A DNA stretch of 64,000 nt from Henricia sp. BOLD:AAB3569 (taxonomy: Eukaryota > Echinodermata > Asteroidea > Spinulosida > Echinasteridae): positions 62,001-126,000 of the forward strand of contig JBBELK010001063.1 of assembly GCA_037783545.1 (NCBI GenBank). Reading direction: 5' to 3'. Below, one piece after another: positions 25,885 through 60,467 of this stretch (the stretch's first letter is position 1; the number at the start of each line of letters is the position of its first letter). Under the pieces are notes generated by a model. The model was not told the origin of the DNA, made no database searches, and was given only the letters and a program-made list of their open reading frames with translations. Both the position numbers and the translations under genes were made by a program.

Positions 25885-26160
25885 TATATATTCAAATATT
25901 ATATTTTTTGTATTGACAATATACACGTACTTTCCTATCATCAGAATCACACTGATCAGAGGGGTTGTGATAAGTATGCAATAATTATGTAACATTTAGC
26001 TTCAAAATCAAACAATTTTTAGACAAAGGTTAAATATAATTAGTTGCTGAAGAGGATTAAACTGGCACATTACAGCTGCACGTTCTTTATTCAAAATCGA
26101 CATTCTGATCCGCCAGATTAATAATTTACAAAATTGTAATTAGGCAATAAAATATTGTGA
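25885..26160. repeat. TRIM-block spacer, copy in block A
   Basis: TTTCCTATCATCAGAATCACACTGATCAG…TGCTGAAGAGGATTAAACTGGCAC…AACATTCTGATC-type phrases recur at 27290-27460 and 52015-52400. It is the sequence that precedes a TRIM unit on the plus strand. Confidence 0.7.
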
Positions 26161-26435
26161 CATGGAGGCCGTCTCCCGATGCCTGGACTCACACTCTTCA
26201 CACTCTTCACAAATCAGATTAGAAGCCGAGGTTTTCAAAAGTAATTACGATGGATGGCGAATAAGGATCCTGCTATTACGTCCTGGAACGAACTGAAAGG
26301 CAATACCTTTCGGTGTTTCGAGCGCTTGTGACCGGTCTCACATTTTGGGGAATTGAGATCCTTAGCTGTGACGTCCTGGTGCAGACTGAGATCCGACACA
26401 ATTCGGTGCTTCTTTGTGTGCCTTGAACGCTTATT
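26160..26435 (-). pseudogene. Scrambled shards of a TRIM gene (copy A)
   Basis: CACTCTTCACAAATCAGATTAGAAGCCGAGG matches the B-box 1 coding region of copy B (29432-29470). The adjacent GGAGGCCGTCTCCCGATGCC is the same gene region in inverted orientation. GACGTCCTGGTGCAGACTGAGATC…AATTCGGTGCTTC matches the segment between the B-boxes (29300-29345). Pieces are out of order and one is inverted, so this is a rearranged relic, followed at once by the 5'-flank sequence of the duplication block. Confidence 0.75.
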
Positions 26436-27480
26436 TATTACACTCTAACACGAAATGCCACTAAAAACCACGCAATGAACGTGAATTCTCCTTTGTGCAT
26501 TATTATTATTATGGCAATACATGTACACAAACATGCTTCATCTGCAAATACTTCAAAGGGCCTGTAACATACTTATTGACATACTTATTGACTGAACAAG
26601 GTTAATTTATCCAGATGTCACTGATTTGAATAAAGCAGAATGCATTTTTCCTGTGCAGTGTTTTATTTAAACATGGCAAACCTTTTACGTTTAACAGTTC
26701 TTTGAAATTCCTTACGTATTTTGCTTGACAGCAAAACAATTTTCACAAAATGTCTAAAAAAATATGACTAAATGTACTCAAATTACATCCATATTCAAAA
26801 GACCATGTAATTAAATGTTACAGCAAAAAAAATTACACTTTCCTTAAATTAAAATTGTATAATGTACATGATAATTCACCACAAATGTATTGGTCTAAAC
26901 CAGTATTGAAATGCAGAGTAAAGCTTTATATTACATGTACATACATACGCTGAAACCTGAATCGGTTCCATAGAGTGCAAACTGTCCATTGAAAAGGTGC
27001 CAGTTATACGTATGCCTTCCAAACCTCGATCTGAAGACGAGGCTTTGAACGCATATGACGTCTTGAAAAGGTTTTCAACCAGGAGTTTGCATAATTCTAC
27101 AGAATTCAGGGGACACGATAAAACCGTTCAAACGCGTGAATACGGTCTATGATTATCAACATATCAGACGAAGATATGAATACATTCTAATAAAACAATG
27201 TAAATTACATTTCTAACAATAACTGATTAATCATCAATTATAGGCTAATCGAAATGTTCAAGTATTTCATTTTTGTATTGATAATACATCTACTTTCCAT
27301 TTTTCAGAATCACACTGATGGGAGCTAGTGATCGTTAAATTTAATTATTTGCTGAAGAGGATTGAATTTGCACGTTAAAAGTGCAGTTTCGTTATTGAAA
27401 CTCAACATTCTGATCGGATAACTTAACTTAAGTTTACAAAATAGGAATTAGGCAATAAACGGTTTTAAGGGTAACTTATC
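26436..27480. repeat. Duplicated non-coding flank shared by TRIM blocks
   Basis: TTATTACACTCTAACACGAAATGCCACTAAAAACCAC recurs near 43800 and, diverged, near 57655. CTTGACAGCAAAACAATTTTCAC recurs near 44100 and 58795. GAAATGCAGAGTAAAGCTTTATATTACATG recurs at 58975, and at 44275 where a transposon splits it. 27280-27480 matches 25890-26155 and 52010-52400. Confidence 0.75.
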
Positions 27481-27499
27481 CTATATGTATTATTCGTTT

Positions 27500-27873
27500 T
27501 ACGGTTTGGTTTTCACAGAATTGAGATGGGGGAGGAGCCCCATACTATACCCAAGACCAAACGGACAGAAATACCGTTTTGCACAGGCGTAAAAGAGGGA
27601 AGGATATGGGGACTTTTTTTTGCAGGGAACACCCCCACCCACACTCTCCATCTCACGTGGCTATAATGGTTGTACTCAGCAAAAAGTCGGAATAGGCCTA
27701 GGACTAAAATAAACGGGTTTTTTCTTCACCTTTTCACATTAACACGCAACCCGCAGGCAACATAAGGGTGTTTGTTAGTTATTTGCGGAACTCCATTTTG
27801 AAACTTATTGTCGGATTTTAGAGGAAGTATACGGTGTGGTGGTGATGGGTTGGAAAGAGCAGTATCCCAGCCA
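27500..27873 (-). other. 3' flank of TRIM copy B (shared with D and E)
   Basis: TTTTCACAGAATTGAGATGG…GGAAGGATATGGGGACTTTTTTTT is found again at 53521-53630 and 59338-59440. The AATAAA-type signal seen after copy D is altered here (AATAACTAAC on the minus strand). Confidence 0.6.
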
Positions 27874-29758
27874 TCATACTCGATGGAAAATTTTCACAGA
27901 ATTGTAATCAGCCACCACGAGATCACCACAAGGAGAGAACGCCATGCCGTAGGGCCAATATAATCCTCGAGCTATGCACTGTACATGTACTCCGTGTGCA
28001 GTGTAATGATGCAGTTCGCAGTTCCCAGCTACGTCAGTACCAAGATCAACGTCGACGTAAATATCACCCGCCTCGTCGCAGCACACGCTGCCAGGCCTCA
28101 TGAGCTGACCGTTTGATTCAGTTCTGATGCTGAAAACCCTATGACCCGAAAAATCCAGGCAGAGTAACCTCTTTCCACTGTACCCACATAGGATCAAACG
28201 GTCGTCGTGTTGGAAGGTAATGTTTTGGGGAAATATGCTTGTAGGAATGATTGAAATCGAGGACCCGTCGATGTTTGTTACAAATACAACGTTTCTTTTT
28301 TGATCTGCCACAGCTACGCGATTCTGCTTATCCGTGGCAATACAAGTAAGTTGACTTTCTTGCAGTTCCCCAGATTCATTTTGTGCCGGTCTGAACTGAC
28401 GAATCAACTGTCTGCCCGTGTTTTAAAAACACTTTAACCAAATTGCCATCTGTGACCAACATCAAATCGTCCCGTGTCACTGCCTGCAAGCCACCTTCAG
28501 GATTAAAGGGAGTCTTGAAGAGCCCATTAGACGTAGATACAGAGACCTTTGCCTTGCTTCTATTCGCTACGGCAATGTTACCATTTTTAAAGGCGCCAAT
28601 GCCCCATAGTCTAATTTTGCCGTCTTCAGTTTCTTCCCCCTCAAACTCATTCTTCAACAACCACTTTTCCTCATGAAGTATTTTCCCCAAATCTGTATTG
28701 GAGACTGACTCCTGGCATTTGACCTCAATGAATGACCTTTTGTGGTCGCCTTGTTCAAACGCCAGTTCTTCTTGAAATTCCAGGTTGTGCATTACCTTGA
28801 GCTCCAACGTCTCAAAGTCGTCAGCATGTTCCATCAGGTCGCTCACAGCGGCCACAATAGTCTTAGCTCTTTTCATCTTGTCACGATTGCTGTTAAACAC
28901 TTTTTCATACTCTTCATCTCTGTCCTTACCGATTATGGTGATCTCGTCTCTGAGAAGCCGAGCCTTGGTTTGAATTTTGTCGATTTCCTCTTTCTCCTTA
29001 GCAGAAACATCATCGCATGCCTTGGTCACCATTAGCTTCAATCTCTTCCGTGAGTGAGATGTGGATTCTTGCGAGGCTTGGAATTCCTTCTCGCTCTTTT
29101 GGAACTTCTTCAAGATGTCATCAACATCTTTACGGTGAGATCCAACAGCATCGGCAATGCTCTTTAATGTGTGTTCTGCTGTACGATGGTTAATCACTCC
29201 ACACATTGCACAGATCAGTGTCTTGCAAGTCTCGCAATAAAAGCAGAGATTTTGGTCAGGGTGCTGTCGGCATTTTGGTGAATGAGGATCCTTAGCTGTG
29301 ACGTCCTGGTGCTGACTGAGATCTGACACAATTCGGTGCTTCTTGGTGTGTTTAAAACGCTTGTGAGCGGCATGACATTGTTGGCAGATGTTCGCATTGC
29401 AGTCCAGGCATCGGGAGACGGCCTCCAAACCGTTTTCACACTCTTCACAAATCAGATTAGAAGCCGAGGTTTCTCCATGTAACTTCTCCCATTTGTTGAC
29501 GTCATCGACAAGCGAGCTCAGGAAGAAACAGCTCTTGAGATTATCAAGACGCGAGTCTGGAATCTCCGTGGTATTCCTACAGACTGGGCAGATGATCTTA
29601 TCGGCATCAGGTTGATGCCTGCTGACCATGTCTTCCAAGCAATCCCGGCAAAGGTTATGTAAGCAGTCTAGTATCTTTGGATCTTTGAAACGACGCAAGC
29701 AGATTGGGCATTCCAGATGTTCCTGGCTGATCTCACATTTGGCTGTAGATTCGGCCAT
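27874..29758 (-). pseudogene. TRIM-NHL E3 ubiquitin ligase, copy B, one frameshift
   Basis: The frame starts at ATG 29758 (MAESTAKCEIS) and not at the upstream in-frame ATGs, because a splice acceptor (TTTCCCCAG|G at 29779) lies just before it in three copies. Order of domains: C3HC4 RING (CPIC…CLHNLCRDC…CPVC, residues about 17-60), B-box 1 (CEECENGL…CLDCNANICQQCHAAH), B-box 2 (KCRQHPDQNLCFYCETC…MCGVINH), a coiled coil rich in Lys/Glu, then NHL-like propeller repeats to the stop at 27874. About 627 residues are covered. RING/B-box/NHL proteins act as cytoplasmic ubiquitin ligases; the substrate here is unknown. A net 4-nt insertion around 28411-28432 shifts the frame in the propeller (stop at 28376), after which the original frame resumes (IRQFRPAQNESG). 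Either a young pseudogene or an assembly error. Confidence 0.85.
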
Positions 29759-29769
29759 CGCGCTTTCGT

Positions 29770-29790
29770 TTAAATGTGCCTGGGGAAACA
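29770..29790 (-). other. Conserved 3' splice site before the TRIM start codon (copy B)
   Basis: The minus strand reads CTGTTTCCCCAG|GCAC, with the ATG 21 nt into the exon. The same acceptor occurs at 41598 (copy C) and 55712 (copy D), each preceded by a pyrimidine-rich tract. This indicates a 5'-UTR intron and a single coding exon. Confidence 0.65.
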
Positions 29791-29921
29791 GAGTACCATA
29801 TAACTTGAAAACATTGTGCTTGCTGTTAAGAATCCGTGTTGTGAATAATACACATTTTATGCTTTTTATGGGGTTGAAGATCCGGTATAAATTAAACCTT
29901 AGGCATTTGGACAGTGTCAGT

Positions 29922-30028
29922 GGCGGATCCATGAGCCTCATTAAAATACAAGAATACAAAGGAAAAGCGGGGGCTACAGCCCTCTGAAATCCATTGTATT
30001 CCTGTATTTTATTGAAGCTGGATCCGCC
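29922..30028. repeat. Hairpin repeat, about 107 bp
   Basis: GGCGGATCC…AAAATACAAGAATACAA is mirrored by TTGTATTCCTGTATTTT…GGATCCGCC. It is a short foldback element in the upstream intron region of TRIM copy B. Confidence 0.7.
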
Positions 30029-31415: not shown

Positions 31416-31857
31416 AGTTGTGCTCAAAATTATTCATACCCTTTAAAATATCTAAAAAATTTCAAATTTCCTCACTCCCAAAAACTATTGTGAAGGAACT
31501 TTCACTGTATCCCAGGACAGTTAGTTGATGCATTGCACAAGACCACATGTTTTGGCTCGGCACATTTGCATAACAATAGTAATGTCCAGATTTGCATTTT
31601 TGTGCCTGTTCAAAATTATTTATACCCCTTACAAAATCTAAGCATTTGGGTCATTTTTGTGTGTGATATAATGCACCCGCTTTCAACATTCTAGTGATTC
31701 CTTCTTGTTGTTCAACAGTTATCCTAACATGTTTGCATAAGATTTGAATCATTAACATATCTGTTCAATTAAATTCAAATCAAAGAATAGCACTCTGCTT
31801 GTAGGCTATTCAGTTTCTGGTCAGCATGGCAAAGAAAAGAGAACTACATGTAATTTG
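31416..31857 (+). mobile_element. 5' end of a Tc1-like transposon, interrupted by another element
   Basis: TAGTTGTGCTCAAAATTATTCATACC is a Tc1-type terminus. The sequence matches 47800-48150 through CAGTTATCCTAACATGTTTGCA. At 31826 an ATG opens MAKKRELH, the usual kind of start of a Tc1 transposase. Ten codons later the sequence is cut by the inverted-repeat element that starts at 31859. The rest of the transposase is not found to the right. Confidence 0.65.
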
Positions 31858-31858
31858 A

Positions 31859-38270: not shown

Positions 38271-38434
38271 TTTCCCAGACACGAGAAACCGCGAGGTGAA
38301 AGGTCAGATCAACTGCGTGTATGGTGCGAACGGCAATTTATGCGCAACATACTGCAACTGCTGGTGCACTCATTGTATTGGACGTGAATTCGCTGTATAG
38401 GCTATAACAAATCATGTTCATACTTTGGGTGGTC

Positions 38435-39437: not shown

Positions 39438-41577
39438 CTACAAGTCTGCATCTACCCCCATTTCTTGTAAAATGTTCACAGACATCACATTAGCCACCAC
39501 GAGATCACCACAAGGAGAGAACGCCATACCGCCTGCCGAATATAATCCCTGAGCTAAGCACTGTACATGCACTCCTTGAGCAGTGTAATGATACAGTTCA
39601 CTGTATCCCTCTTCGCCATGAACGGTGACGTAAATATCACCCGCCTCGTCGCAACACACCATGTGGGGCCACTTGAACCGCCAATCGAGTATTTTGGTGC
39701 TGAAAACCTCATTACCCGAAAAATCCAGGCAAAGTAACCTGTTTGCATCGTAACAAGATAGGACCAAGTGGTCGTCGTGTTGGAAGGCAATGTCCGATGG
39801 ACATACGCTGGTAGGAATGATTGAAATCAACGACCCCTCGAGGTTTGTCACGTATACAACATTTCTTTCTTCGTCTGCCACAGCTACGCGATTTTGCTCA
39901 TCCGTAGCAATACAAGTAAGTTTACTTTCTCGCGGTGCCCCAGATTCATCTTGTGCCGGTCTGAACTGACGAATCAACTGCTAGTCAGTGTTAAACACTT
40001 TAACCAAATCACCATCTGTGACCAACATCAAACCCTCTCGTGTCACTCCTACGCTGTGTGGAGCCTGCAAACCACCTGGATTAAAGGAAGTCTTGAAGCG
40101 TCCATTAGACGTAAATACGGAGACCATTGCCGTGTCTCCGTACATTACGGCGATGTCACCGTTTTTAAAGGTACCGACTCTATATGCTATGAAATCACCA
40201 CGTTCAATTTCCTTCCCCTTAAACTCATTCTTCAACAACCACTTTTCCAACACCAAATCTCGTGCCACTGCCATTCTACGGTCACACCGCAAGCCACCTT
40301 CTGTATTTAAGGAAGTCTTGAAGCGTCCATTGGACGTAAATATATATATATTTGCTCTCAGGTCATTACGGCAATATCACCGTTTTTAAAGGTGCCAATG
40401 TCGAATGGACGAATTTCGCCGTCTCCAATCTCCTCCCCTTCGAACTCATTATTTTAATCCCACTCCTCCTGATAAAGTATTTCCCCGAGATCTGTATCGG
40501 AGATTACATCTTGACATTTGAACCCAATGAATGACATTTCGTGGTTGCCTTTTTCAAGCACAAGTTCCTCCTGAAATTCCAGGGTGTGCATCACCTTCGG
40601 CCTAAGATCCTACATCTCAAAGTCTTCAGCATGTTCCATCAAGTCATCCACAGCGGTCACAATGGTCTTGGCTCTCTCCATCTTGTCACGATTACTGTTT
40701 AACACTTTTTCATACTCTTTATCTCTGTCCTTACCGATTTTGGCAATCTCGTCTCTGAGAAGCCGAGCCTTGGTTTGAATTTTGGCGATTTCCTCTTTCT
40801 CCTTAGCAGAAACATCATCGCAAGCTTTGGTCACCATCAGCTTCAATCTCTTCCGTGAGTGAGATATGGATTCTTGCGAGGCTTGGAATTTCTCCTCGCC
40901 CTTCTGAAACTTCTTCAAGATCTCATCAACATCTTTGGAGTGAGATCGAACAGCATCTGTGATGCTGGTTAATGTGTGTTCCGCTGCTTTATGTATGATG
41001 GTCAATCACTCCACACATTGAACAGATTAGTATGTTGCAAGTCTCGCAGTAAATTGAGAGATTTTGGTCAGGGTGCTGTGTGCATTTTGGTGAATGAGCT
41101 TGAGGATCCTTCACTGTGACCCCGTGGCTTGGACTGATATCTGACACAATTCGGTGATTCCTGGTGTGTTTAAAACGATTGTGAGCAGCCTCACATATTT
41201 GGCAGATGTTCGCATTGCAGTCCAGGCACCGCGAGACGGCCTCCAAACCGTCTTCACACTCTTCACAAATCGGATTAGAAGCCAATGTTTCCCCAAGTAA
41301 CTTCTCCCGTTTGTTGACGTCATAGACAAGCGAGCTCAGGAAGAAACAGCTCTTGAGATTCTCGGGCCGCGAGTCTGGAATCTCCGTGGCCTTCCTACAG
41401 ACTGGGCAGATGATCTTATCAGCGTGAGGTTGATGCTTGCTGACCAAGTCCTCCAAGCAATCCCGGCAAAAGTTATGTATTGCAGTCTAGTATCTTTGGG
41501 TCTTTGAAACGACGCAAGCAGATTGGGCATTCCAGATGTTCCTGGCTTATCTCACAATTGGCTGTAAATTCGGCCAT
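39438..41577 (-). pseudogene. TRIM-NHL gene, copy C, multiply disrupted
   Basis: Start at 41577 (MAEFTANCEIS), with the conserved acceptor at 41598. Lesions in order: one extra base in the RING near 41475-41482, after which the proper frame resumes (CPVC, then B-boxes); a 7-bp insertion near 40993-41000 after B-box 2; a TTG-to-TAG nonsense change at 40612-40610 at the end of the coiled coil; stops in the first propeller part; a 221-bp tandem duplication of one propeller segment (GTFKNGDIAVM at about 40378 and again at 40157); and a further in-frame stop at about 39978-39981. The last part is open from 39977 to 39438 but ends in a different C-terminus (NILQEMGVDADL). Clearly a pseudogene. Confidence 0.9.
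40030..40480 (-). repeat. 221-bp tandem duplication inside TRIM copy C
   Basis: CACCGTTTTTAAAGGTGCC at 40378 and CACCGTTTTTAAAGGTACC at 40157 mark two copies of one NHL segment. Copies B and D have it once. The two halves have diverged, so the duplication is not recent. Confidence 0.8.
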
Positions 41578-41599
41578 CGCGATTTCGTTTGAATGTGCC

Positions 41600-44284: not shown

Positions 44285-44506
44285 AGGCCCGGTCACACTG
44301 CAGCGATAACGAACACGATAACGAATACGATAACGGGAAAATAAATCGCCACCGTGCTAACCGACGCAGATGGTCACACTGCAACGATAACGATTCCGAT
44401 GCTTCAAAACCGATACGATCGAAATCGGATGAATCGTTCAGGGAGCGATTTTTAATTTTTTTATCGGACGAATTTGTGTTCTGGCCAATCAGGCGCGACC
44501 ATTGCA

Positions 44507-46235: not shown

Positions 46236-46318
46236 AACTTGTCTATAGAGGCCACCCTCGTACCGGGACCGTAAAAAACTGGCCACAATACAATATGTGG
46301 CCTTTTTATAGAGAATAC

Positions 46319-46904
46319 TTAAAGGGCCCCTGACATAGTGTTTTTAACAATGACATCTGTGCTACGGAACTAGTGCATTAAAGGCACAGGCTCGTCAGCA
46401 ATGCGCGCCCGCCAAATTCGTGCTCGAAACACGCAGCTCCATGCCTTTGCTATGGAGCTGCGTATTGCGTGATACACATTTGGTGGGCGCGCATTGCTGA
46501 GGAGCCTGTGCCTTTAATTTACAATCATAAAAACCCTACTTGGAAGTTGTTTGGGGGTGTTAAAATCAAGGTTTTTTATTTATATGTAAATTTGCATTAA
46601 AGGCAAATTTACATATATATGAGCAAAGTGGTATGAGCAAAGTGGTCACATTAGGAAAACACAGGAAAACCTCATTCGACTGTGCACAAAAGTTTCCACA
46701 ATTGTCTTCAACTTGCTGAAACTGTTGTAACCCATGACGACAGCGCCCTCTTTCTGTGAGTTTATGTGAAGAAATTTTCAAAGTTAAAAAATGCCAAAGT
46801 TAAAAAATGAACAGTAGTAGGCCTACTGTCTTTCTATACAAGTAATCCTTCATATTACAGCTATACTGTGAATAAAGTTATTGAGCATTTGAGGGGCCCT
46901 TTAA
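46319..46904. mobile_element. TTAA-flanked MITE (AGGGGCCCTTTAA ends) with a nested hairpin
   Basis: TTAAAGGGCCCCT at the left, AGGGGCCCTTTAA at the right. The right TTAA is shared with the next MITE, which begins at 46901. The hairpin at 46378-46517 lies inside. Confidence 0.65.
46378..46517. mobile_element. Hairpin MITE of 140 bp
   Basis: TTAAAGGCACAGGCTCGTCAGC…CACGCAGCTCCAT is mirrored by ATGGAGCTGCGT…GAGCCTGTGCCTTTAA. The stem is long, with only a short loop around CCTTTGCT. Confidence 0.8.
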
Positions 46905-47189
46905 AGGAGCATGTTCAGATCACATTTTTAACCCCCTCCCCCTATTTTTTGATACCATATCATTTGTCTCACTACCACTCCGAAATGTCATAAGAAAAAA
47001 CACTGATATTTTTTTATACTATTTTATCCAGCTATGTAAAGCAGTGCAGTGATTTACACCAAACCTTTTGCTTCCACATCCTAAAGATTGCAATTTGTCT
47101 GTTTTCTTCCCATTTGGGGAGGTATTTTATATGACAGTTAGGTTAGAACAAAATGCATTTTCCACAAAAATCTGAACACGCTCCTTTAA
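46901..47189. mobile_element. TTAA MITE (AAGGAGCATGTTCAGATCACA ends), copy 3
   Basis: TTAA-AGGAGCATGTTCAGATCACA at the left and ATCTGAACACGCTCCT-TTAA at the right. Same family as 21808 and 33213. Confidence 0.8.
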
Positions 47190-47799
47190 GCATTTTACAA
47201 ATGACATTTAAGACCAAAGACGAGTGGCCACTGTAAAAAGTGGCCTCTGTTTTAAGGTAAACTAGGGATGGAAATTTACGGTTGATTCAAAAACCGGTTT
47301 GCAATTCTTTCAAGTGAATTACTGTCAATCTTTCTCCATGTGTATAGTAGTGATTTTGTTGAAACCCAGCTTGCAGATGACATTCAAAGTGTATACATGT
47401 ACTTGCCGTTTGACAAATATAGTTTAGCACAATTTAATTTGTTATTCTAAACCAGGTATTTTTTTATTGTAAAGGTAAGTTGGCTATTGTCGGGGTCTTG
47501 AAAAATTGGTATTTGGAGTGCAAACAAACAATACAACTTTTGTGTTCGGATTTATATATAATATTGATTGGTTAAATTTCAATATCAATGCTATAATGTA
47601 AGACCATTCAGTGAAACGGGTAAATAAAATTGTCTAAATACTACCAGTGATGTTACTGAATGTTTTATTTTGTGTGGATCACAGTTTGCCTAAAAAAACT
47701 AAACTGACGAAAAGACAAAGCTGGCGTTGTCATTTTGGTCTCGTCCCAGAAGGATTTAGAAATAAAATACCCATGCGGCTGAACCGGTGAATATACATA

Positions 47800-48491
47800 A
47801 TTATATACAAAATTATTCATACCTTTAAAATATTTAACATTTTTTAAATTTCCTCTCCCAAAAACTATTGTGAAGGAACTTTCACTGTATCCTGGGACAG
47901 TTAGTTGCTGCCTTGCACAAGACCACGTGTTTTGGCTTCGACATTTGCATAACAATAGTGATGTCCAGATTTGATTTGTTAGTGCCTGTTCAAAATTATT
48001 CATACCCCTTACAGAATCTCACCATTTAGGCAATTTATTTTGTGATATTGCACCTGCTTTCAACATTCTAGTGATTCTGTTTTGTCGTTCAACAGTTATC
48101 TTAACATGTTTGAATACGATTTGAATCATTAACATCTGTTCAATTAAATATAAGGCAGTCACGAAATGGTTCGAGGACAACCATGTGGACGTTTTGGAGT
48201 GGCTGGGCCAAAGCCCGGATCTCAACCCGATCAAGAATGAGGGAACTCAAGACTCGGGTGATGGCAAGGAAACCTTCCAACCTCAATGACCTTGAGACCT
48301 TTGCGACGGATCGATCGGAGGAGTGGGTGGAAATCCCAACGTGCCAAGCCTTGTAAGCTGATACAGGAACCGTTTTGAGGCAGTGATAAAAAACAAAGGC
48401 TTTTCTTTTGATTATTAAAAGTGACTTTATTAAGGGTATGAATAATTATAACATGAAATTTTTTGGACATTGATCATTTTTAGCACAACTG
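47800..48491 (+). mobile_element. Tc1-like transposon, internally deleted
   Basis: The left part matches 31416-31750. The right end reads GGGTATGAATAATTATA…TAGCACAACTG followed by TA. Between, 48155-48350 decodes as the end of a Tc1 transposase: KWFEDNHVDVLEWLGQSPDL followed by NPIKNE (the catalytic Glu of NPIEN is Lys here), then VMARKPSNLNDLE. Frame breaks follow. It is inactive. Confidence 0.75.
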
Positions 48492-48807
48492 TATATCAGT
48501 AATGAACCATGCGTTAATTACTCCTTGACTTCAGCTAGAGGGGTGTCCGTTTTCACAAGGTCGAATAACGTCAAATTCAATTGAGAGAATTACTTTTCCT
48601 TAAAGTTGCACTACCCGTGTTTGGGCCGATTTGGGCGTACAATTTTTTTAAAAGTTAAATAGGTATTTTTCTAAAATAGAAAAAGTTATCAGCTTTCATT
48701 TGGTACCAAGAACGTAAAAATCCGTCAAGGATTAATGCCAGTCGATTAAAAACAAGAAATGATTAAATGGCTGGCAGGTCATTTAATCGACAGGGTTATG
48801 ACGTCAA

Positions 48808-48877
48808 TGTACATGTGCGCGTACATGTGTACATTGTACACATACTATGTACATATGAGTGTACGCGCACATGTACA
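48808..48877. repeat. Palindrome of TGTACATG words, 70 bp
   Basis: TGTACATGTGCGCGTACATG is mirrored by GTGTACGCGCACATGTACA with a short asymmetric centre. It can form a strong hairpin or cruciform. Confidence 0.7.
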
Positions 48878-49298
48878 ACATGTGAAGCACGTTTCAAGAA
48901 AAAGGCTTGTATCTCCAATTCCCGACGTCGGAAATTTACGTTTTTGATATTTTTCGTTACAGAGACACGTAAGCTTTCTAAATTCGTTCGCTTGTGTAAA
49001 TTAATTTTTTTAATCCTTTCACACAAACACGGGCAATGACATGCCCAACGATTTATCGTTCCTTTTTCGCACCAGTGTGACCTGCGCAAACGATATATCG
49101 TTCTCGTTTTTGACGGCGATTTCGTTATCGTGTTCGTTATCGCTGCAGTGTGACCGGGCCTTAAAGCTTTATAATACATGTATACATACGCTGAATAGTG
49201 AAAATTGTGTCACAAATTATTTGATATTGGTAAAACTAATATTTTTCGACATTTTAGATGAATATTAAGGTGTTGATTAAAAATATAAGCAAGTTATA

Positions 49299-51039
49299 CA
49301 GGGTGTCTCTATAAAAAGAATACCCATTTTAAAATTCAAATTATCGCAAAACTACACAATATTTCAGAAAAAGAAAAATAACTGTGGAAAGCTTGGAATG
49401 TCCTCTGTCCATTGGTATGACGTTCATTATGTCACTGTCATAGATGACTGAACAAAAAATACAGTTATGAAAGGTGTCGAAATCAGCACTGTGACAAGTT
49501 GTTTTCTGGAATGACAAAGCTCAGACAGGTGTTCTTCACAATTTCTTTGCTGTTACGTTAAGACTTCATAGGTCAGGGATGTACATTTATGCATCACATT
49601 ATGTAAGTATTCTTGGATGCACCAAAAGTGTTGCATGCCACAGAAAAAGTTCATACCAACAGCAAACATGGTGCAGCTCACAACTCAACAGAGGACATTT
49701 GTTGTCAAGACATACCATGAGACAAGAAGTTTCATTGCTGTCCAAAATGTCTTTAGGGACCACTTTCCTGAGAGGCAAGTGCCAACCAAAATGACTATTT
49801 GGAAAAATGTGAGAAAGTATGAAGAACACGGGACAAGCTTAAACCGTAACAAGGGACATTCTGGGCACAGACGAACTGAAAGGTCAGAGGAATTATCAAC
49901 ATGGTTAGAGAGGCGATCGAAGGTAACCCAACGCTAAGCACCAGGAGGAATGATACAGGATTACCTCGTGCTACCTTCAACAGGATCACACGTCTGGATT
50001 TGCATCTCCATCCTTATCACATCCATGTTCAACATCAACTCCTACCAGCTGACCTTGCCAGACGACTTGCCTTTTCACAATGGTTTGTGGATAAATGTCA
50101 CAGAGATCCACAGTTTCTGCAGTTCCTTAGTATCGGAGATGAGGCAGCCTTTTCCATGAATGGGAAAGTTAATTTTCATAACGAGCACATGTACGCTGAA
50201 CTGCATCATCCACCGGGTTTTTCTTATGACGTGAACATGAGTAGGGAGAAAGTTAATGTGTGGATTGGACTTTGTGGTAATGGATCATTGTTAGGACCAT
50301 TTTTCTTTGAAGGAAATTTGAACGGACAGGCATACCTGAATATGATCAATGACTTTGTGGTACCAGAGATGGATCAGAACTTCCCTAGACAGCGACGTGG
50401 AGCCTTCAGACGGGTGTGGTGGGCTCAGGATGGAGCCCCTGCACACAGACTTATTGCTGTGAGAAATCGTCTAGCAGAGCTTTTTGGTAACCGGGTGATT
50501 GCATTATTCCACCAGGTTGAATGGCCTGCAAGATCACCAGACTTGACACCATGCGACTTCTTCCTGTGGGGTCACTTAAAAGGCAAAGTGTTCACCACAC
50601 CCCCAGCTAACATTCAGGAGTTAAGAGCCCGATTAGTCAAGATCATGGGATGATAAGGCGAGCAGTAAGAGACATGACACGAAGATGCCAACTATGCATC
50701 GTCAGAAATGGTGGGCATGTGGAGGGTACAGCACCCTAAATGTGTCGGGTAGCCTACATGTAAATACCACAATTAAAGGAAAGGATCAGAAAAATGGTGT
50801 TGTTTCTTCATTCATTGTCCGGTCACCACTGTCTACAAACTTGTCACAGTGCTGATTTCGACACCTTTCATAACTGTATTTTTTGTTCAGTCATCCATGA
50901 CAGTGACATAATGAACCTCATACCAATGGATAGAGGACATTCCAAGCTTTCCACAGGTATTTTTCTTTTTCTGAAATATTGTGTAGTTTTGCGATAATTT
51001 GAATTTTAAAATGGGTATACTTTTTATAGAGACACCCTG
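49299..51039 (+). mobile_element. Mariner-like element with inverted repeats of about 200 bp and TA target duplication
   Basis: CAGGGTGTCTCTATAAAAAGAATACCC at the left and GGGTATACTTTTTATAGAGACACCCTG at the right. The arms continue inverted for about 200 bases through GATTTCGACACC / GGTGTCGAAATC with few mismatches. TA lies at 49297-49298 and 51040-51041. The small arm divergence suggests a fairly young insertion. Confidence 0.9.
49668..50653 (+). pseudogene. Mariner-type transposase (DD41D spacing), one frameshift
   Basis: Starting at MVQLTTQQRTFVVK, an N-terminal helix-turn-helix region of DUF4817 type runs to RTERSEE. A one-base loss near 49890 moves the reading to the next frame (NMVREAIEGNPTLSTRR). 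The catalytic region shows SIGDEAAFS (first Asp), WWAQDGAPAH (second Asp) and SPDLTPCDFFLWGHLK (third Asp). By my count 41 residues separate the second and third Asp, as in the DD41D group. The frame ends at 50653 (LVKIMG), where family members usually continue a few dozen residues; RRAVRDMTRRCQ-like coding is visible in another frame just downstream, so a second frameshift is likely. The transposase would cut and paste the element at TA. Confidence 0.85.
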
Positions 51040-51041
51040 TA

Positions 51042-52400
51042 TATTAAGCACATAATGTACTAATAATACATGATAATTAGTTTCTCTGACTCGATTCAAA
51101 AAGCTCATACATGTAGAGAAATATTATATCATGGGACAATACAAGAAAATACACAATTGTATTTTTTACAAATCATTTCACAATATTCATCATAATTGAC
51201 GGGAAAACATAATTACGGCGCATGCGTGTTAAATCCATTCAGAAATAACTTTAAAAACACTACATGTGCATGGTTTGCTCCCTTACTTCTTTTGAGTGTT
51301 GTATTTTGCCGTATTTACATTTATCCCAATTTTGCATACCTAATAGGGCAAATTCCGTTGAGGGGAAGGACTAGTTGATTTAGTCACAACATTTCTCATT
51401 TCACCATGATCTCACTGGCCAAATCGGATTAATCTCACTGTCACCATAACGTACATTGTTAGGACCATCAACATTTGTATACTGGTCAATTTTACTGCCT
51501 GTAAAAACTGTCAAATTGTAGCAACTGTAACTTCAGGGTGTATCAAGAAGTATACACTCGTGAAAGTGTACAGATAAAATGGAAAGTAGATGTAGGCCTA
51601 GATTTGGGAAATGGTGATCATGACGTTAATAAAAGTTTTAAACCTATGTATACCAATATGTATGAGCCAATTTCTGAAAATAAAGTATTAATCCATATGA
51701 AGATATAGAGACATTATAACAATGAAATATAATATGAATGTATATATTTTTAACAGTAACTGATTATCATAATCCGAGATATTCAAATTATTTCATTTTT
51801 GTATTGACAGTACATGTACGGAGATAACTGAGAAGTCGATCTTGGCTGCAGACCTTGTGCACAAAACATATAAGACTGATTGAAAATGTTTAAAGAAAAT
51901 CTGTAATTTTTCACACTCCTTAATTTGAGTTTTCTATCAAGTCTGCATTTACTGATGCTTAAGTTATTAAAAAAAACATTCATTATCAACTTCTCAGTTC
52001 TTACCGCATGTACTTTCCTATCATCAGACTCACACTCATGAGACGGATAGTGGGTGGTACTAAGTATGCAATCATTATGTTAACGTTCTTCAATATCAAA
52101 ATAATTAGGCATAAAATCATTATTAAGAGGATTACACTATACTCATAATAAGTTGTGGTTCAATTTTGGCATTTTTTTGAAATGACTGTTTACACCTATT
52201 CCTTTGACATGTATGTCATGCTATACAAAATCATTCAAGTGAAATGGATACCCTCAAAATATCTGCGTACACCCCACAATATCCCTAACTTATTTAGTGT
52301 AAAATGGCACTTTCGGTATTAAAACTTGGCATTCTGATCGGCCAGTTAAACATTTAGAAAAAAATAAATTATAGGTAATAACAGATTTTAAAAGTAACTT
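51042..52400. repeat. Spacer of the TRIM duplication between blocks C and D
   Basis: Phrases shared with other blocks: ATGATCATGACGTTAATAAAAG…ACCAATATGTATGAGCC (24.3 kb), TATTTCATTTTTGTATTGACAGTACATG (27.26 kb), TACTTTCCTATCATCAGACTCACACT (25.9 kb), GGCATTCTGATCGGCCAGTTAA (27.4 kb). No gene. Confidence 0.65.
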
Positions 52401-53483
52401 CCCAGACAGCAAGCATACGTCGCACCGACGCGTCGCGACGTCGGCAAAGGTCGGCATAGGTCGGCGAACGTCGCCCGTCGGTGTACGACGTCGCCCGTCG
52501 GTGTACCACGTCGGTACGACGTCAGATATGGGCCGGCGATTTCCGTATTTGCTATACGTCGGCATTAGGTTAGACACTTGGTCAACATGACGTCACTTTA
52601 ACGTCAATATTTGACGTCAATAAGGTGTCATATATAACGTCGGTAAGACGTTATATAAAGGTTATCACATTACGTCAGTGCGGCGTCGACATACTGCGTC
52701 GAATTAACGTGGGTTTAGGCACGACAATTTACGTCATGCTTGCGTCGCTATTCTGACGGCAACCTGACGTTAACGGCAACATGTGGGCACACGACGTGTT
52801 AAAGACGTCTTTTTCCAGTCATTTTAGACTCCTGCGTCATAAAGTGGTCGTGACCAGATTTACCGTAAAAAGGCTAATTTGCTTCAGTTTTGGCAGTTGT
52901 TTTGTTTTTTTGTCAATGGGTTGTTGCTTGATAATAGGCAAATTGGCAACTGTCGGGGATGAACAAACTCAAAGTGGCGAGTGATTAGTATTAAGTTTGG
53001 TATTCGGTTAGTAGGTGTGTGCCAACCATGGGTTACAGGGTGCAGGTTTTAGTGGAGCATAAATAGAAGTCGCGCATAAAGTTATGTATGAAGAGTGTAT
53101 AAGTAGTGTATGAGTAATTTATGAGTATCTATGTATGAGTATCGATGAATATGTATGAGTAATGTATGGGGCGTCAAAAAAAGACGTCTTTTGGCTTTGC
53201 ATACGACCCCACAAAGACGTTAATAAGACGTCAATAAGACGTCAATAATTTACGTCTGCCGTTGAGCCAGCATTGAATTAACGTGGAAATAAGGTTGGGA
53301 ATTAAGCGATATGACGTTTGTCCAACGTTAACGCCAACTTTAATTTAAACAACGTTGTGCCAACGTTATTCGGAAGTGCAACTTTACGTTGGAACAACGT
53401 CATTTTCTAACGTTGGTCCAACGTTTCTTCATCAATTACTGACGTTGATCCAACGTTGGGCTAACGTAAGTTTGCTGTCTGGG
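52401..53483. mobile_element. 1.08-kb element with CCCAGACAGCAAGC ends and dense ACGTC/AACGTT words
   Basis: CCCAGACAGCAAGC at the left and GTTTGCTGTCTGGG at the right, flanked by TT on both sides. The corresponding spot in block B (27474-27480, GTAACTTATCC) lacks it. The left third is packed with ACGTCGG and TGACGTCA words. The right third is packed with CCAACGTT / AACGTTGG. The middle carries a short tandem stretch (GTATGAGTA). No transposase is encoded, so it is non-autonomous. Confidence 0.75.
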
Positions 53484-53788
53484 TTATTCTAACAGTAGGA
53501 TTTTTTTTTTTGGTGGCTTAGTTTTCACCGAATTGAGATGGGGTAAAAAAAAAAAAGGGCCCCCAGACCCACGGCTAAACGGCCGGAATTGCACGGGCGT
53601 CGAAGAGGGAAGGATATCGGGACTTCCCTTCACCTCATGTATGTATAACGCTGAAATATGTGGCATGCAACATGAGGGTGTTTGTTTATTTGTAGAAATC
53701 CTATATAGTTTTTTAAAACATTGTTGCATTTTAAAGAAAGTACTTGTGGCGGTGAGGAGTTTGAAAGAGCAGTTCCTTCAAACATCAT
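53484..53788 (-). other. 3' flank of TRIM copy D with a candidate polyadenylation signal
   Basis: TTTCACCGAATTGAGATGG…GAAGGATATCGGGACTT is shared with blocks B and E. On the minus strand AATAAA lies at 53690-53685, about 100 nt after the stop codon, a plausible cleavage signal. Confidence 0.55.
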
Positions 53789-55691
53789 TTATTTTACACG
53801 ATGATAAATTTTCACAGACTTGAAATCAGCCACCACGAGATCACCACGAGGAGAGAACGTTAAGTCGAAGGGCAAAATAAATCCTCGTATTATGCTCTGT
53901 ACATGTACTCCTTGTGCAGTGTAATGATGCGTTTCACTCGCGTGTTTACTGTCTTTGTGAATGGGGACGTAAATATCACCAGCCACGTCGCAGCACACGC
54001 CGCAAGGCCTCATGAACTGACCGTGTGCTTTAGTGCTGATGCTGAAAAACTCATGTCCCGAAAAATCTAGGCAGAGTAACCTGCCCTCAGACCAACTACA
54101 TAGGATCAAACGGTCGTCGTGTTGGAAGGCAATGTCATATAGGCGTAGACCTATGCTAGTAGGAATGATTGAAATCAACGACCCGTCGAGGCTTGTCACG
54201 TATACAACGTTTCTTTCTTCGTCTGCCACAGCTACGCGATTCTGCTCATCCGCAGCAATACAAGTAAGTTTACTCTCTCGCAGTTCCCCAGATTCATCTT
54301 CTGCCGGTCTGAACTGACTAATTAACTGTCGGTCCATGTTAAACACTTTAACCAAATCGCCATCTGTGATCAACATCAAATCATCTCGTGTCACTGCCAG
54401 GCTGTGTGGAGCATGCAAGTCACCTTCTGGATTAAAGGGAATCTCGAAGCGTCCATTAGACGTAAATACAGAGACAACTGCCATGTCTCTATTTATTACG
54501 GCAATGTCACCGTTTTTAAAGGCGCCAACGTTAGAAAATGCGCCATCTTTAGTATTTTTTCCCTCAAACTCATTCTTCAACAGCCACTTTTCCTCATGAA
54601 GTATCTCCCCCAGATCTGTATCGGAGACTACATCTTGACACCTGACCCCAATGAATGACTTCTTGTGATCGACTTGTTCAAACAGAAGTTCGTTCCGATA
54701 TTCCAGGTTGTGCGTCACCTTTGGCTTAAGATCCAACATCTCAAAGTCGTCAGCACGTTCCATCAGGTCGCTCACAGCGGTCACAATGGTCTTAGCTCTA
54801 TCCATCTTGTCACGATTACTGTTGAACACTTTTTCATACTCCTCATCTCTGTCCTTACCGATGTTGGCGATCTCGTCTCTAAGAAGCCGAGCCTTGGTTT
54901 GAATTTTAGCGATTTCCTCTTTCTCCTTAGCAGAAACATCATCGCATGCCTTCGTCACCATCAGCTCTAATCTCTTCCGTGAGTGAGATATGGATTCTTG
55001 CGAGGCTTGGAATTCTTCCTCGCTTTTCTGAAACTTCTTCAAGATGTCACCAACATCTTTACGATGAGATCCAACAGCATCTGTAATACTTTTTTACTGT
55101 GTGTTCCGCTGTATGATGGTCAATCGCTTCACACATTGAACAGATTAGTATCTTGCAAGTTTCGCAGTAAAAGCAGAGATTGTGGTCATGGTGCTGTGTG
55201 CATTTTTGGGAATGAGGATCCTTAGCTGCTGTTACGTCCTGGCTTGGACTGAGATCTGACACAATTCGGTGCTCCTTGAAGTGCTTCAAGCGCCCATGAG
55301 TGGTCTTGCATTGTTGGCAGATGTTCGCATTGCAGTCCAAGCATCGGGAGACGGCCTCCAAACCGTCTTCACACTCTTCACAAATGAGATTAGAAGCCGA
55401 TGTATGTCCAAATAACTTCTCCCGTTTGTTGACGTCATCGACAAGCGAGCTCAGGAAGAAACAGCTCTTGAGATTATCAAGGCGCGAGTCTGGAATCTCC
55501 GTGGCCTTCTTACAGACTGGGCAGATGATCTTATCAGCATCCGGTTGATGCTTGCTGACCAAGTCTTCAAAGCAATCTCGGCAAAAGTTATGTAAGCAGT
55601 CTAGTATCTTTGGATCTTTGAAACGGCGCAAGCAGATTGGACATTCCAGATGTTCATGGCTGATCTCACTTTTGGCTGTAGATTCGGCCAT
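53789..55691 (-). pseudogene. TRIM-NHL E3 ubiquitin ligase, copy D, nearly intact
   Basis: Start at 55691 (MAESTAKSEIS) after the conserved acceptor at 55712. RING ligands C17, C20, C32, H34, C37, C40, C57 and C60 are all present. B-box 1 begins at C104 (CEECEDGL…CLDCNANICQQC) and B-box 2 at about residue 164 (KCTQHHDHNLCFYCETC). One extra T in a T6 run (55090-55095) shifts the frame after B-box 2; the downstream frame then covers the coiled coil (SEEEFQASQESISHSRKR…) and the whole NHL propeller to the stop at 53789 (KSVKIYHRVK). About 633 residues without the slip. A homopolymer slip is also the commonest assembly error, so the gene may be functional. Expected role: ubiquitin ligase, substrate unknown. 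Confidence 0.88.
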
Positions 55692-58094
55692 CGCGCTTTC
55701 GTTTAAATATGCCTGGGGAAAATCAAAACTCGCAGATATAGGTTTACACAACTAAAGTTTGGTTGTGTCCCCATTATTGAATCTTACACGTACTATAAAA
55801 AATTCTTGATGAAAGTCAGAAATACATTTTATTGTATTTTATTTTGATTTTTATATTATTTTGTGGAAGGAATGCCATATGTGGCCACTACTGCGTGGAA
55901 CCCATGCTCAAACCTATTAGGCAAGTCAGAAAACTTCAAAGTTTTTGCCTTTTTATTATCAAACTCCACACGTGGTTTATATGCCGTAACAGTGTGTGTG
56001 GATATGAAATTCAACCCCACATGGAACGAACGTAATGTGAACAAACGTGAATCCACAGCAAACCGTATTCGTTAATTTAAACAGAAATTAAAAAAGTGCG
56101 AGTTCGGGAATTTAACACTTCTTATAATAACACACGAAAATTCCAACCACTCTCCTGCAGTATAATTACTTTACTTACTGTAAATTATACACTCGTCCTT
56201 CACCTATAAAATCAGTTTGGTGCACTGGGAGTCTGAAGAGATGAACTACAAAATGGCGCAGCAAAAAATAAGTCACGAGTGATTCCGAAATTACTCACCT
56301 GATATGAACTAAAATAGATGCGGAGATTTTCACGCTTGATAAACTATTCAAGGTGAAAGGTTAGATAAGTAAATCGTGTTTACCGTGCAATTATGAAGAG
56401 ACTAGTAATTTATACGCAGTAATTTGCTGTTCAAAGGCCATTTTGAAAAATGGATTCCCAGAACAACGAAACTACATCCACAAATGTTAGCTGCATTGAT
56501 CATCAATTTTCCTCCATGCATATGCAGCGATGTTTGAGAAAATGATTAAAATTCATACATTTCTTTGAAAAGTGAATGCTAAAACTAGCGTTAATTTTCC
56601 TAAAATTAAGGTAATGATTAGAAAACGTTTAAGAAAAGGAACAACAGCATCACATTGAATAGACTGCCTGGTAGAAATTCCAGCCACAAAAATCCATGCA
56701 TATTTTAATGTCTCGTACAAAAATTGTCTTCAGTTGGCAATTTCTCTCTCAAAGGTACCATTTTACACGGAAGTAGTGTTTGTTCAACACTTCTTTTCTT
56801 GTCAACTCATGAAGCAACATTTCGGGTCACTTCAAATGATGTTCATGTATTGGGCTTGACCCTTCACTGTAAAAGTGACTCTACATCATGCACGTGATTT
56901 TACCAAGCTCATGCACCTGAGGTGTTGCGGTTGTGCAACGCATACCCCTCATGGTGAGGCAAGTGTCACCTCATGTTGAGGTGACTGTCACTTCATGTTG
57001 AGGCGAGTGTCACCTCAAGTGTTTCATGTGCCTGGTGTGATAGTAAAAGTTTAAATGGAAACAATTCATGTGCGAGAGATGAAATTATTTTCAGTAAAAC
57101 CTTTTTCATTGTCAATCATCTTACACGTCAGGTGCAACACATGCTGCTCAACACGCTCTGACCACTACTTCACACACCTGAAGTGACCATTCAATTTACT
57201 TTTTAAATTTTCCGGCCCCACACGTGCATGAGACGCGAGTTAACAAATTAAACCATCACATATGATGTACATGATGAACAGTGGTTTAATCTACTTGAGC
57301 TATACTTTGGGTGCTAGTCACAAACACACCAGGTACATGTACCTCATCCATGAGCAGTTACTTGCCTCATGTGTTCATGATTGTGGGACAAAAATGTGTT
57401 AGTGAAATAATTTTTACAGTGTGGTCGTGATTGGTCAATGAGTATGTGTGTTTTAACAGCACGGGACAGCAGTGCAGTAGGCAACAACAGACAAATTCGA
57501 GCTAGCTGAACTATACAAACGTCAACGGAAACAACATATATCGAAAACAAAAGGTCTAACAAGCACTCTAAAGTATTTTAAACATTTTATTTCCATTTTA
57601 CTCATCTTTAGTTCCAATTAAATAAATGTTCTCTGTGCATTTATGTTATCTTATTTATTACACCCCTACACGAAATATCACTATAGAAAACACCATTGAA
57701 CATTGACTATCTTTGAGGGATGAAACCTGCGAAACTTTCAAAATTCTCCTTTGTGCATTAGGCCTACTATTATGACAATACACAAGAACTTTCTTCCGTA
57801 AAAAAAAGGGGATGTTACATACTTTTTGACTGAACAAGCTTGATTTATCCAGATTTCACTGATTTGAAAATAGCAGAATGCATTTTTCCTGTGACGTATT
57901 TTTTCAAACATGGCAGTTATGTTTGACAGTTCTGTTAAACACATATTGTCGGCTCGAAATAGACCCATACATTATTCTGAAAGTCTTTCCGAAATAAACT
58001 AAATAGATTCTGAAAAGAAACCATCAAATTTGGCCGGTTTTTTAGCATTTTCCAAAAATTCAAGGTCACGGGATTTATCCGAACCAGATTTCTG

Positions 58095-58250
58095 GGCAAA
58101 CTTATCAGCGGCGCATTCAAAGTTTGATCAACAGCATGCGCAAAAAATGTCTTGGGGTGATTGCAAAGAAGATTTTTATCGTTTTCACTGTAATTTCCTG
58201 TGATATGTGATAATAAACAATAGTCATTTTCCTAAATCTGTGTGTCGTTG
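58095..58250 (+). pseudogene. Tc1-like transposase 3' scrap
   Basis: GGGCAAACTTATCAGCGGCGCATTCAAAGTTTGAT matches 32547-32585 at the end of the Tc1-like transposase fragment. The following AATAAACAATAGTCATTTTCC could be its 3' end. Very short and broken. Confidence 0.5.
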
Positions 58251-58359
58251 TTTTCTCAACAGTTTCTTAATAAAAGGTGTAGCGTCTTAAAACCCTTTGT
58301 GTTAAGAATCTACACTTTTCGTAGATTCTTAAAATTATTTTTTATTATTATTATTTATT

Positions 58360-58690
58360 TCTGGTATTCATACCAAGGATTCCTCTAAAGTGCCCATTGC
58401 ACTGTCACTCGGAAGTGTTAGGAAACCCATGAAGAATTAGAAATTAGAGATGGCCAGAGACACCGGGGAATCCCCTTGCTCTTCACGAAAGAATGCTCTG
58501 GGAACTTAAAAGTGCGTTACCGTTACCTAACACAGTGGACCAACGGCTTCACATCCCTTCCGAAAGATGGAGCAAGTGTGGTTGAGTGCCTTGCTCAAGG
58601 ACACAGGTACCGCAGCCGGGGGAGGTTCGAACCCGCAACCCCAAGTTTTCACCTGTGATTGCGAGTCAATGACCTAAACCACTTAATTCG
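58360..58690 (-). mobile_element. SINE, copy 2 (better preserved)
   Basis: On the minus strand: GGTTTAGGTCATTGACTCGC…GGGTTGCGGGTTCGAACC (B box), GTCCTTGAGCAAGGCACTCAACCACACTTGCTCC (core), AAGCCGTTGGTCCACTG and GGGATTCCCCGGTGTCTCTGGCC, ending near AGAGGAATCCTTGGTATG. Same family as 11530-11875 and related in the core to 35401-35600. Confidence 0.75.
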
Positions 58691-59337
58691 GTAAAAACCA
58701 AACCGCGAACGAATGAAAATGTCACATAGGCCTACACATAGGCCTACATCCAGTTTGTATAGTGTGACGTCACTAAAATTCTTTCCGTATTTTGCTTGAC
58801 AGCAAAACAATTGTACAAAATGTCCGAAAAAAGATGACCTGATGTACACAAATTATATCCAATTTCCAAAGAACATGTAATTACAGCAAGATATTACAAT
58901 TTACTTTCTTAATTTACAGGATAGCTGTCCACAATTCCATTTCCATGTATATTGGTCTAAATCAGTATTGAAATGCAGAGTAAAGTTTTATATTACATGT
59001 ACATACGCTGAAAACTGAATCTGTGTCAAATTATTTGATATTGGTGAAACTAATGTTCGAGAATGAATATTAATGTTTGACAATGAATATTAATAATATA
59101 TTGGATCGCTTTAATTTGAGGGTGATGTGAGAATATACTGCACGAGTCATGAAAAATACCGAACGAGCCGAAGTTATTTTTAAGACGAGGGTACACCACA
59201 CAATATCACTAACTTCGGAGTATAGTGTAAATTGGCACACGTTAGAACTACACTTTCGTTATTTTAATCGGAATAAACAAATATTCATCTGCTGTTTCGT
59301 GATGTATGTGACATTTTCATTCTTTCCGCGGACTTGT

Positions 59338-59440
59338 TTTCACCGAATTGAGATAGGGAGGGGCCCTAGCTAGACCCAATACCCAACGGCCAGAAAGACC
59401 GCTTTGCACGGGCATTATAGAGGATATCGGGACTTTTTTT
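59338..59440 (-). other. 3' flank of a lost TRIM copy (block E)
   Basis: TTTTCACCGAATTGAGATAGGGAGG…GAGGATATCGGGACTTTTTTTT is the same downstream flank as after copies B and D. Confidence 0.7.
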
Positions 59441-59807
59441 TCTGAATGTCCTTCAGATCAAGTCGTCTGTGGGCAGTTTCAAATATGCCTTCAAACATTA
59501 TCTCATCTCCTGTTATGTAACATAGTCTTCCCTTTACTCTCATCCAAACTTTCTTCTCATCTTCAACTGGTACAAGCTTTCACGTTTTGAAAAAAGTGTC
59601 ATTTGATTTACAACAAAAATGCATACAAAAGAGGTCCGTATTAAATATACGTTTATTCGTTAAGTGGCTTATACATCGGTCGTCTTATGTATAGCAGTTG
59701 GTGCGAAAACAACCAGAATGTACCAGAATGCACATATTCTGCACGTTTGTGAACGGCGAGTGTTTGCATTCGAATATTGTGGCTTTAGTTGCACTTATCG
59801 TGTGTAA
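59441..59807. other. No recognised gene
   Basis: Unique sequence between two parts of block E. Nothing identified. Confidence 0.4.
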
Positions 59808-60094
59808 TGCACCTATCAATTGTTTCCCCCACCCCTCCCCCCCCCTCCCCCCCACGCGCTGCCCCACCCCCTAGGTGGGGGTTTGGTCACGTTTTTCATG
59901 CCCCAGGGTAGGGCATTTGACCCATTTTATGTGCATTTTTTTGCGCATGTTTTGCACCCGAGGGTGGGGATTTTTGTAACCTAAATGTTGCCCCAGGGGT
60001 GGGGATTTTGTCACGCAAAAAGTGGCAATCCCCACCTCTTAGGCGGGGTAGCCCGGGGGGCGGGGAGGGGTGGGGAAAACAATTGATAGGTGCA
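59808..60094. mobile_element. MITE with TGCACCTATCAATTG ends, full copy
   Basis: TGCACCTATCAATTGTTT…CCCC at the left and GGGGAAAACAATTGATAGGTGCA at the right. The interior carries runs of GGTGGGGAT and ATCCCCACC. It serves as the uninterrupted reference for the copies at 2693-3497 and 19082-19375. Confidence 0.85.
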
Positions 60095-60284
60095 AAAGTG
60101 GTTGGAAAAAAATTGTAAAGTACTTGTGGCAATGAGGAGCAGCGGCGTCGCCAGAGCCTTAAAATATCGCTCCTCCTCCTGATGACCCCACAATGAGTCT
60201 TGAGGTTTGCACAACTGTATGTGTCCGCCCTCGCCCGTCCAATGTGCCGTGCCACCCCTCGTCTGCCAACCTACTGGCGACGCA

Positions 60285-60440
60285 GCTGAAAGAGTTGAAA
60301 GAGCAGTTTCCCAACCATCATACTCGATGAAAACAAAAGATGACCACAAGGAGAGAACGTCACGCCGCCGGGCCAATCTAATCCCTGAGCTATGCACTGT
60401 ACATGTACTCCTCGTGCTGTGTAATGATGCAGTTCATGCC
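60285..60440 (-). pseudogene. TRIM C-terminal remnant (copy E)
   Basis: The minus strand reads ELHHYTARGVHVQCIAQGLD, then GGVTFSPCG, the last NHL segment of copies B and D, then breaks off before the expected VVADxxSVKI end. The following AGTTTCCCAACCATCATACTCGATG (plus) is the shared 3' UTR. Everything upstream of the last blade is gone. Confidence 0.85.
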
Positions 60441-60467
60441 TTTTAGTCCATGGGCCAGAGGGGCCCA

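Follow-up and report, generated by a model that had tools for sequence, protein, structure and literature searches.

A putative sea star TRIM-NHL recognition repertoire with probable shuffling through gene conversion and a birth-and-death edge

INTRODUCTION

Vertebrate TRIM families that race with viruses use a B30.2/SPRY domain, and TRIM71/LIN41, TRIM2, TRIM3, and Brat are conserved genes present in low copy number. The SpTransformer proteins of sea urchins are unrelated to TRIM-NHL proteins and lack a ligase architecture. Here, we describe TRIM-NHL gene copies in a 64,000-nucleotide stretch (the window) of the sea star Henricia sp. BOLD:AAB3569, i.e., positions 62001-126000 of contig JBBELK010001063.1 (C1063) of GCA_037783545.1, an assembly of 740.7 Mb in 2,104 contigs, to which all C-numbers refer. 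On balance, we favor the reading that these copies lie at the edge of a set of TRIM-NHL recognition genes, that gene conversion reshuffles this set, and that its edge is where copies are born and die.

The fish finTRIM, btr, and trim35 families and TRIM5alpha belong to TRIM multigene sets with hypervariable C-terminal recognition loops under positive selection; for btr, recombination breakpoints have also been inferred (PMC3137616). The sea star family resembles them but has an NHL propeller instead of B30.2/SPRY, an echinoderm host, and a coding part made of one open frame. In fungal HNWD NOD-like receptors (PMC4986451), positive selection likewise diversifies interaction-surface positions of a beta-propeller, and sequence is exchanged both inside single genes and from one gene to another; unlike the sea star proteins, they carry WD repeats on a NOD-like receptor, and exchange also occurs between highly similar repeats of one gene. 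The SpTransformer genes are another echinoderm tandem family of mosaics, with allelic clusters of unequal gene number and short repeats flanking genes and clusters (PMC8634487). TRIM71/LIN41, TRIM2, TRIM3, and Brat share with the present family the RING, B-boxes, coiled coil, and six-bladed NHL of TRIM members; unlike them, the sea star genes number in the dozens, have diversifying loops, and show no filamin domain in the proteins searched. Invertebrate TRIM subgroup D (worm and fly) also differs, being made of filamin-related genes; the abstract on it names fruitfly, worm, and ciona as the invertebrates. A study of amphioxus and bony fishes (PMC5787515) includes a TRIM71-annotated gene, with a ratio of 1.41, in its list of fast-evolving genes, so that rapid change in an NHL TRIM may already be documented there. 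Among the titles and abstract beginnings listed, we recognized no publication that describes expanded TRIM-NHL genes in an echinoderm or a positively selected NHL domain in TRIM proteins; PMC13043383, on sea urchin coelomocytes, contains relevant terms.

RESULTS AND DISCUSSION

The window is a crop of a large TRIM-NHL family

The initial annotation described five tandem blocks, A to E, of a TRIM-NHL locus, sharing the gene, both flanks, and a spacer. Window self-BLAST and finer searches bore out a single order and orientation, with parts of the gene in each block and off-diagonal matches in the flanks; blocks B, C, and D each contain one minus-strand copy of the gene (Table 1). Self-BLAST matched B (27753-29788) to D at 83.7% identity over 2,084 columns (E = 0) and to C at 85.3% over 1,323 columns and 78.2% over 804, whereas C (40248-42011) matched D (54371-56164) at 80.3%. 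The noncoding 5' flanks of C and D also align, at 79.5% (42939-43320 versus 56165-56527) and at 70-76% (43568-44286 versus 57424-57915 and 58777-58985), and A (26430-26966) matches both at 69-77%. No distal 5' flank of B was found in the window self-BLAST, and A and E are shards; E, annotated as the last blade only, contains that blade and a piece of 3' flank.

Pfam detected RING and two B-boxes in pieces of B and D, B-boxes in a piece of C, and NHL in pieces of all three, in agreement with the annotated TRIM-NHL identity. RING and two B-box stretches also scored above the Pfam cut-off in three intact relatives, which places the family among the TRIM (RBCC) proteins. The predicted structure has a six-bladed NHL propeller at the C terminus, as in TRIM-NHL proteins, and, at low confidence, a long helix after the B-boxes; the coiled coil-NHL linker spans about 60 alignment columns. 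In the intact relatives, Pfam NHL was above the cut-off in L014, just under it in L010 (19.6 versus 20), and not listed in L057. No filamin domain was matched at E 0.001 in three full-length relatives, which sets them apart from the TRIM2/TRIM3/TRIM71 subclass, and B30.2/SPRY was absent from the Pfam matches of these relatives and of the window pieces, with NHL in its place. The coding part is a single open frame in intact members.

A search with the D protein found at least 98 places, a lower bound because 97 of 446 candidates were scored; DNA searches add further places. Among these 98, 83 had an open frame of at least 600 residues and no stop, 8 had a stop, and 10 had a shorter frame. Contig pairs with equal-score matches and near-identical aligned pairs suggest that both haplotypes are partly assembled; probable haplotype pairs (e.g., C171/C266) are counted twice, and the number per haploid genome is therefore lower. 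On C882, C263, C387, and C715, copies share one orientation per contig, with median spacings of 6.6, 9.1, 6.4, and 6.2 kb; three of the four match the unit of about 6 kb that had been proposed, and the tandem segmental structure stands. C171 carries copies in both orientations. The C1063 cluster itself extends past the right end of the window, where further copies lie near contig positions 140k, 146k, 170k, and 180k, so that the five blocks are a crop of the cluster rather than its whole. On C882, the coding sequences of L027 and L028, 22 kb apart, are identical, and L021 and L022, 24 kb apart, have equal scores and frame lengths; both pairs may reflect either very recent segmental duplication or an assembly repeat.

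Copies are mosaics of one another

The copies were compared with their nearest relatives in overlapping 300-bp windows. C is 94-99% identical to the 170k copy (L055/L056) at 39.55-39.99 kb and from about 40.25 kb upward, although L057/L058 are equal or slightly closer in two windows at 40.60-41.05 kb and are nearest at the extreme gene end (91.9%, 39.40-39.70 kb). Between about 39.9 and 40.24 kb, C is nearest to the C1021:152k copy (L051), at 89-92%. A 225-bp redundancy lies near 40252, and its two arms are 74% identical over 156 columns and have different nearest relatives. On these grounds, the tandem duplication initially annotated is rejected as a recent event, and the redundancy is an exchange scar at the junction of two diverged paralogues. 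Since the codon-33 frameshift and a flank repeat are common to C and the 170k copy, a dead gene was duplicated, and it seems that C later received a tract from a third copy. As for B, 28.95-29.85 kb is 95-97% identical to the 146k copy, rising to 99.7-100% from 29.70 kb into the 5' flank over the extent of the 146k locus examined, whereas 27.75-28.95 kb reaches 80-88% to its nearest copies, except for one overlapping window at 93.6% (28.80-29.10 kb).

The statistical case for exchange is limited to 19 main-array copies with 128 two-state sites. Mean squared correlation between sites (r2) was 0.21 at up to 10 bp, dropped to 0.08 for separations of 50-100 bp, and leveled at 0.059-0.066 past 200 bp, where unlinked sites would give 0.056. 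Linkage thus reaches background over about 200 bp, a trend matched in 0 of 500 permutations. All four combinations occurred in 5,737 of 8,128 site pairs (71%). Distances computed from the two gene halves were uncorrelated (r = 0.00), compared with 0.44 for random halves, none of 1,000 being as low. Together, these three observations are the pattern that paralogues produce when they often convert one another over short tracts. Between neighboring blocks of 60 codons, the correlation is 0.01, but for scattered sets of equal size it attains only 0.13; this block measure is therefore weak, and we rely on the r2 decay and on the halves. With 26 copies, the halves are strongly correlated (0.82 contiguous versus 0.94 random), which we think reflects the split between main arrays and C1063-type clusters.

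Lesions are partly shared and partly allele specific

Lesions were scored against the nearest intact relative of each copy. B has one net frameshift near 28429, where the annotated net insertion of 4 nucleotides appears as +1 in the alignment, the two being equal modulo 3. C has frameshifts at 41481 (+1), 40994 (+7), and 40368 (-4), reference-frame stops at 40612, 40456, and 39983, and a fourth, 39405, at a ragged alignment end; the frameshifts and nonsense changes claimed for C are confirmed, but the first, at codon 33, is common to the 170k copy. The single extra T of D, in the T run 55090-55095, is present on C1063 and missing from C548, which has the locus at 99% identity with an open frame, and is therefore an allele or an assembly error; a fixed pseudogene is ruled out for D. 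The statement that each copy is broken in a different way does not survive as a settled state. Pairwise ratios of nonsynonymous to synonymous substitution rates (dN/dS), which the initial annotation had proposed computing, are 0.60 (B-C), 0.53 (B-D), and 0.54 (C-D), within the range of the six pairs among four intact copies (0.44-0.64), so that inactivation was probably recent relative to divergence.

Positions 20-9338 of C548 align with window positions 51040-60335 with 42 substitutions in 9,281 columns and 12 indels, and the D frame there encodes 682 residues. C548 lacks both a 1.7-kb transposon (49299-51039) and a 4.9-kb element (44287-49161); beyond them it continues with a C-like 5' flank of only 77-90% identity, where the 20 kb of C548 examined contain no full gene but only a trace of 24-29 residues. 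No near-identical allele of B or C was found among the scored matches, the best others being 87% (B) and 96% over part of the query (C). Past the right edge of the window, C1063 has a partner in the end of C163, with substitutions of 0.12%, 0.23%, and 0.06% around the 146k, 140k, and 170k copies, respectively. On C1063, the 146k copy (Trp to stop) and the 140k copy (17-bp deletion) are broken but their C163 counterparts are open, whereas the 170k copies are broken on both contigs; an unpaired C163 copy at 90k has a stop. Overall, all six readable copies on C1063 (B, C, D, 140k, 146k, and 170k) are broken, compared with one of the four paired copies on partner contigs, the other three being open.

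Probable selection on the propeller loops and its possible meaning

In 26 intact copies, dN/dS of the RING was 0.14-0.28, and the proportional ratio of nonsynonymous to synonymous differences (pN/pS) was about 2 in the NHL BC loops and 0.28-0.46 in the AB and CD loops. The RING-B-box-coiled-coil part is conserved in intact members and the propeller variable, i.e., a multigene set with diversifying selection on a putative recognition face, above neutral in the BC loops only. Several points weigh against a recognition reading. The DA loops change at a nearly neutral rate, with ratios of 1.09 when all pairs are used and of 0.98 and 0.83 when pairs are disjoint. Disjoint pairs likewise give no significant excess over neutrality for the top face as a whole (P = 0.063 and 0.19), so that positive selection is carried by the BC loops. 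The variable columns were known before loop classes were assigned; the 26 copies are best matches to the window copies rather than a random draw, with broken loci excluded; and the open-frame count comes from a list that favors intact copies, from which B, C, and the further broken copies of C1063 are missing. Ligand binding by the top face is itself an analogy to LIN41.

These neutral values, along with six dead copies of six on C1063, three of them open on a partner contig, would fit relaxed constraint, in which surplus copies drift and loops tolerate change without any recognition function. We regard this as unlikely, as 83 of the 98 listed copies, albeit in a biased list, keep open frames, and as the RING, AB, and CD values stay low while the BC loops exceed 1 in the same proteins. 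Slightly more doubtful is an amplification of LIN41/Brat-like RNA-binding regulators with loops varying because each copy binds a different RNA: the upper surface of LIN41 has a large basic patch, whereas the top-loop net charge here averages -4.5 (range, -14 to 3; NHL part, -12.7) in 26 proteins by a crude count without electrostatics, and identity to LIN41/Brat-type NHL domains is 15-19%. Assembly or base-calling errors in mostly living copies are very improbable: D differs from the open C548 frame by one homopolymer T, two further single-base homopolymer differences occur in that 9.3-kb alignment, and B has no allele for comparison, but C carries many lesions, one common to the 170k copy on two contigs, the 140k deletion and the 146k substitution are not typical read errors, and sequencing noise as a general cause is ruled out by that deletion, the nonsense change, and the shared frameshift.

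We hold the account of turnover and mosaicism with high confidence, and the birth-and-death cluster initially proposed is supported. In this account, the window is the decaying edge of a TRIM-NHL family with about 100 or more places (both haplotypes partly counted), whose main arrays consist of tandem units of about 6 kb in one orientation and whose copies are mosaics made by paralogue exchange. A dead copy has itself undergone duplication, some copies are dead on one contig and open on the allelic partner, and two mobile elements occur on one contig and are missing from its partner. With moderate confidence, we propose a recognition role, the analogues being the TRIMs of fish (PMC3137616) and the propeller receptors of fungi (PMC4986451). 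The BC and DA loops would form the ligand-holding face and would direct each protein, as a RING ubiquitin ligase, to a partner that changes fast, the simplest candidate being a protein of a pathogen or parasitic element; gene conversion would supply new face combinations, and unselected copies would rot in place. More tentatively, the sea star may hold a germline repertoire of beta-propeller TRIM ligases, with dozens to a hundred one-frame tandem genes trading tracts under about 200 bp, each copy a new loop combination on a constant ligase frame, and single haplotypes losing working stretches that the partner keeps. If so, animals that lack adaptive immunity would have arrived, with loop-diversifying NHL TRIMs, at a second solution built on the same ligase frame. 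Turnover could then be timed within one genome from the dead and allele-specific copies, and the BC loops should decide the ligand.

Features of the window and other observations

Table 1. Positions of cluster parts and insertions within the window
Feature	Position	Strand	Remarks
Block A, remains of a lost unit: B-box-region shards and distal 5' flank	26163..26966	-	Shards 26163-26432, one 27-bp piece inverted
Block B 3' flank	27376..27752	-	Pieces at 27376-27621 align with the flanks of D and E
Block B TRIM-NHL gene, frameshift near 28429 in blade 2	27753..29788	-	Self-BLAST, Pfam, alignment to relatives
Block C TRIM-NHL gene: frameshifts, stops, 225-bp redundancy at about 40022-40470	39459..41607	-	Self-BLAST, alignment to relatives
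Putative foreign tract in C, edges approximate	39900..40246	-	Closest to C1021:152k copy; flanks closest to C1063:170k copy
Repeat inserted in C 5' flank	42012..42938	.	170k copy has the repeat at 96%; relatives elsewhere 92%
Block C 5' flank	42939..44286	-	Self-BLAST
4.9-kb insertion	44287..49161	.	39-bp perfect terminal inverted repeats; not at this site in C548
DNA transposon	49295..51043	.	Inverted ends 97.6% identical over 206 bp; TA target; site unoccupied in C548
Block D 3' flank and spacer	51044..53662	-	C548 alignment, finer searches
Block D TRIM-NHL gene and proximal 5' flank	53663..56527	-	Extra T at 55090-55095 here; frame open on C548
Block D distal 5' flank	57424..59024	-	Self-BLAST
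Block E: 3'-flank piece and last NHL blade	59319..60471	-	59319-59441 and 60297-60471 (tblastn E down to 6e-13)

Within the transposon, a 257-residue open frame (49880-50653) resembles by eye a Tc1/mariner-type transposase; Pfam gives no match for it at E 0.001. Both window ends (652-2694 and 60500-64000) carry the same GC-rich minisatellite, with a unit of 21 bp and a higher order of 125 bp; C548 begins near the right-hand one, and C163 ends there by extrapolation of paired coordinates. A high-copy repeat at 3965-8400, with many scored genome copies at 94-99% identity, has no stop-to-stop frame of 150 residues or more. Positions 12412-12850, 15725-17156, and 20409-20720 contain a palindrome (79%), tandem repeats of 333 bp and 189 bp, and a 39-bp repeat present eight times.

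The invertebrate deuterostome host initially assumed agrees with the mitochondrial data. C2104 (16,221 bp) carries trnF, 12S(+), 16S(-), ND2(-), ND1(-), tRNAs(-), and COX1(+), ND1 and ND2 being recognized by eye, in the order of sea stars. Its COX1 reads best, judged by eye at conserved Asn positions, with AAA as Asn (code 9). C955 has three COX1 matches at steps of 16,221 bp, the mitochondrial genome apparently standing in tandem on that contig.
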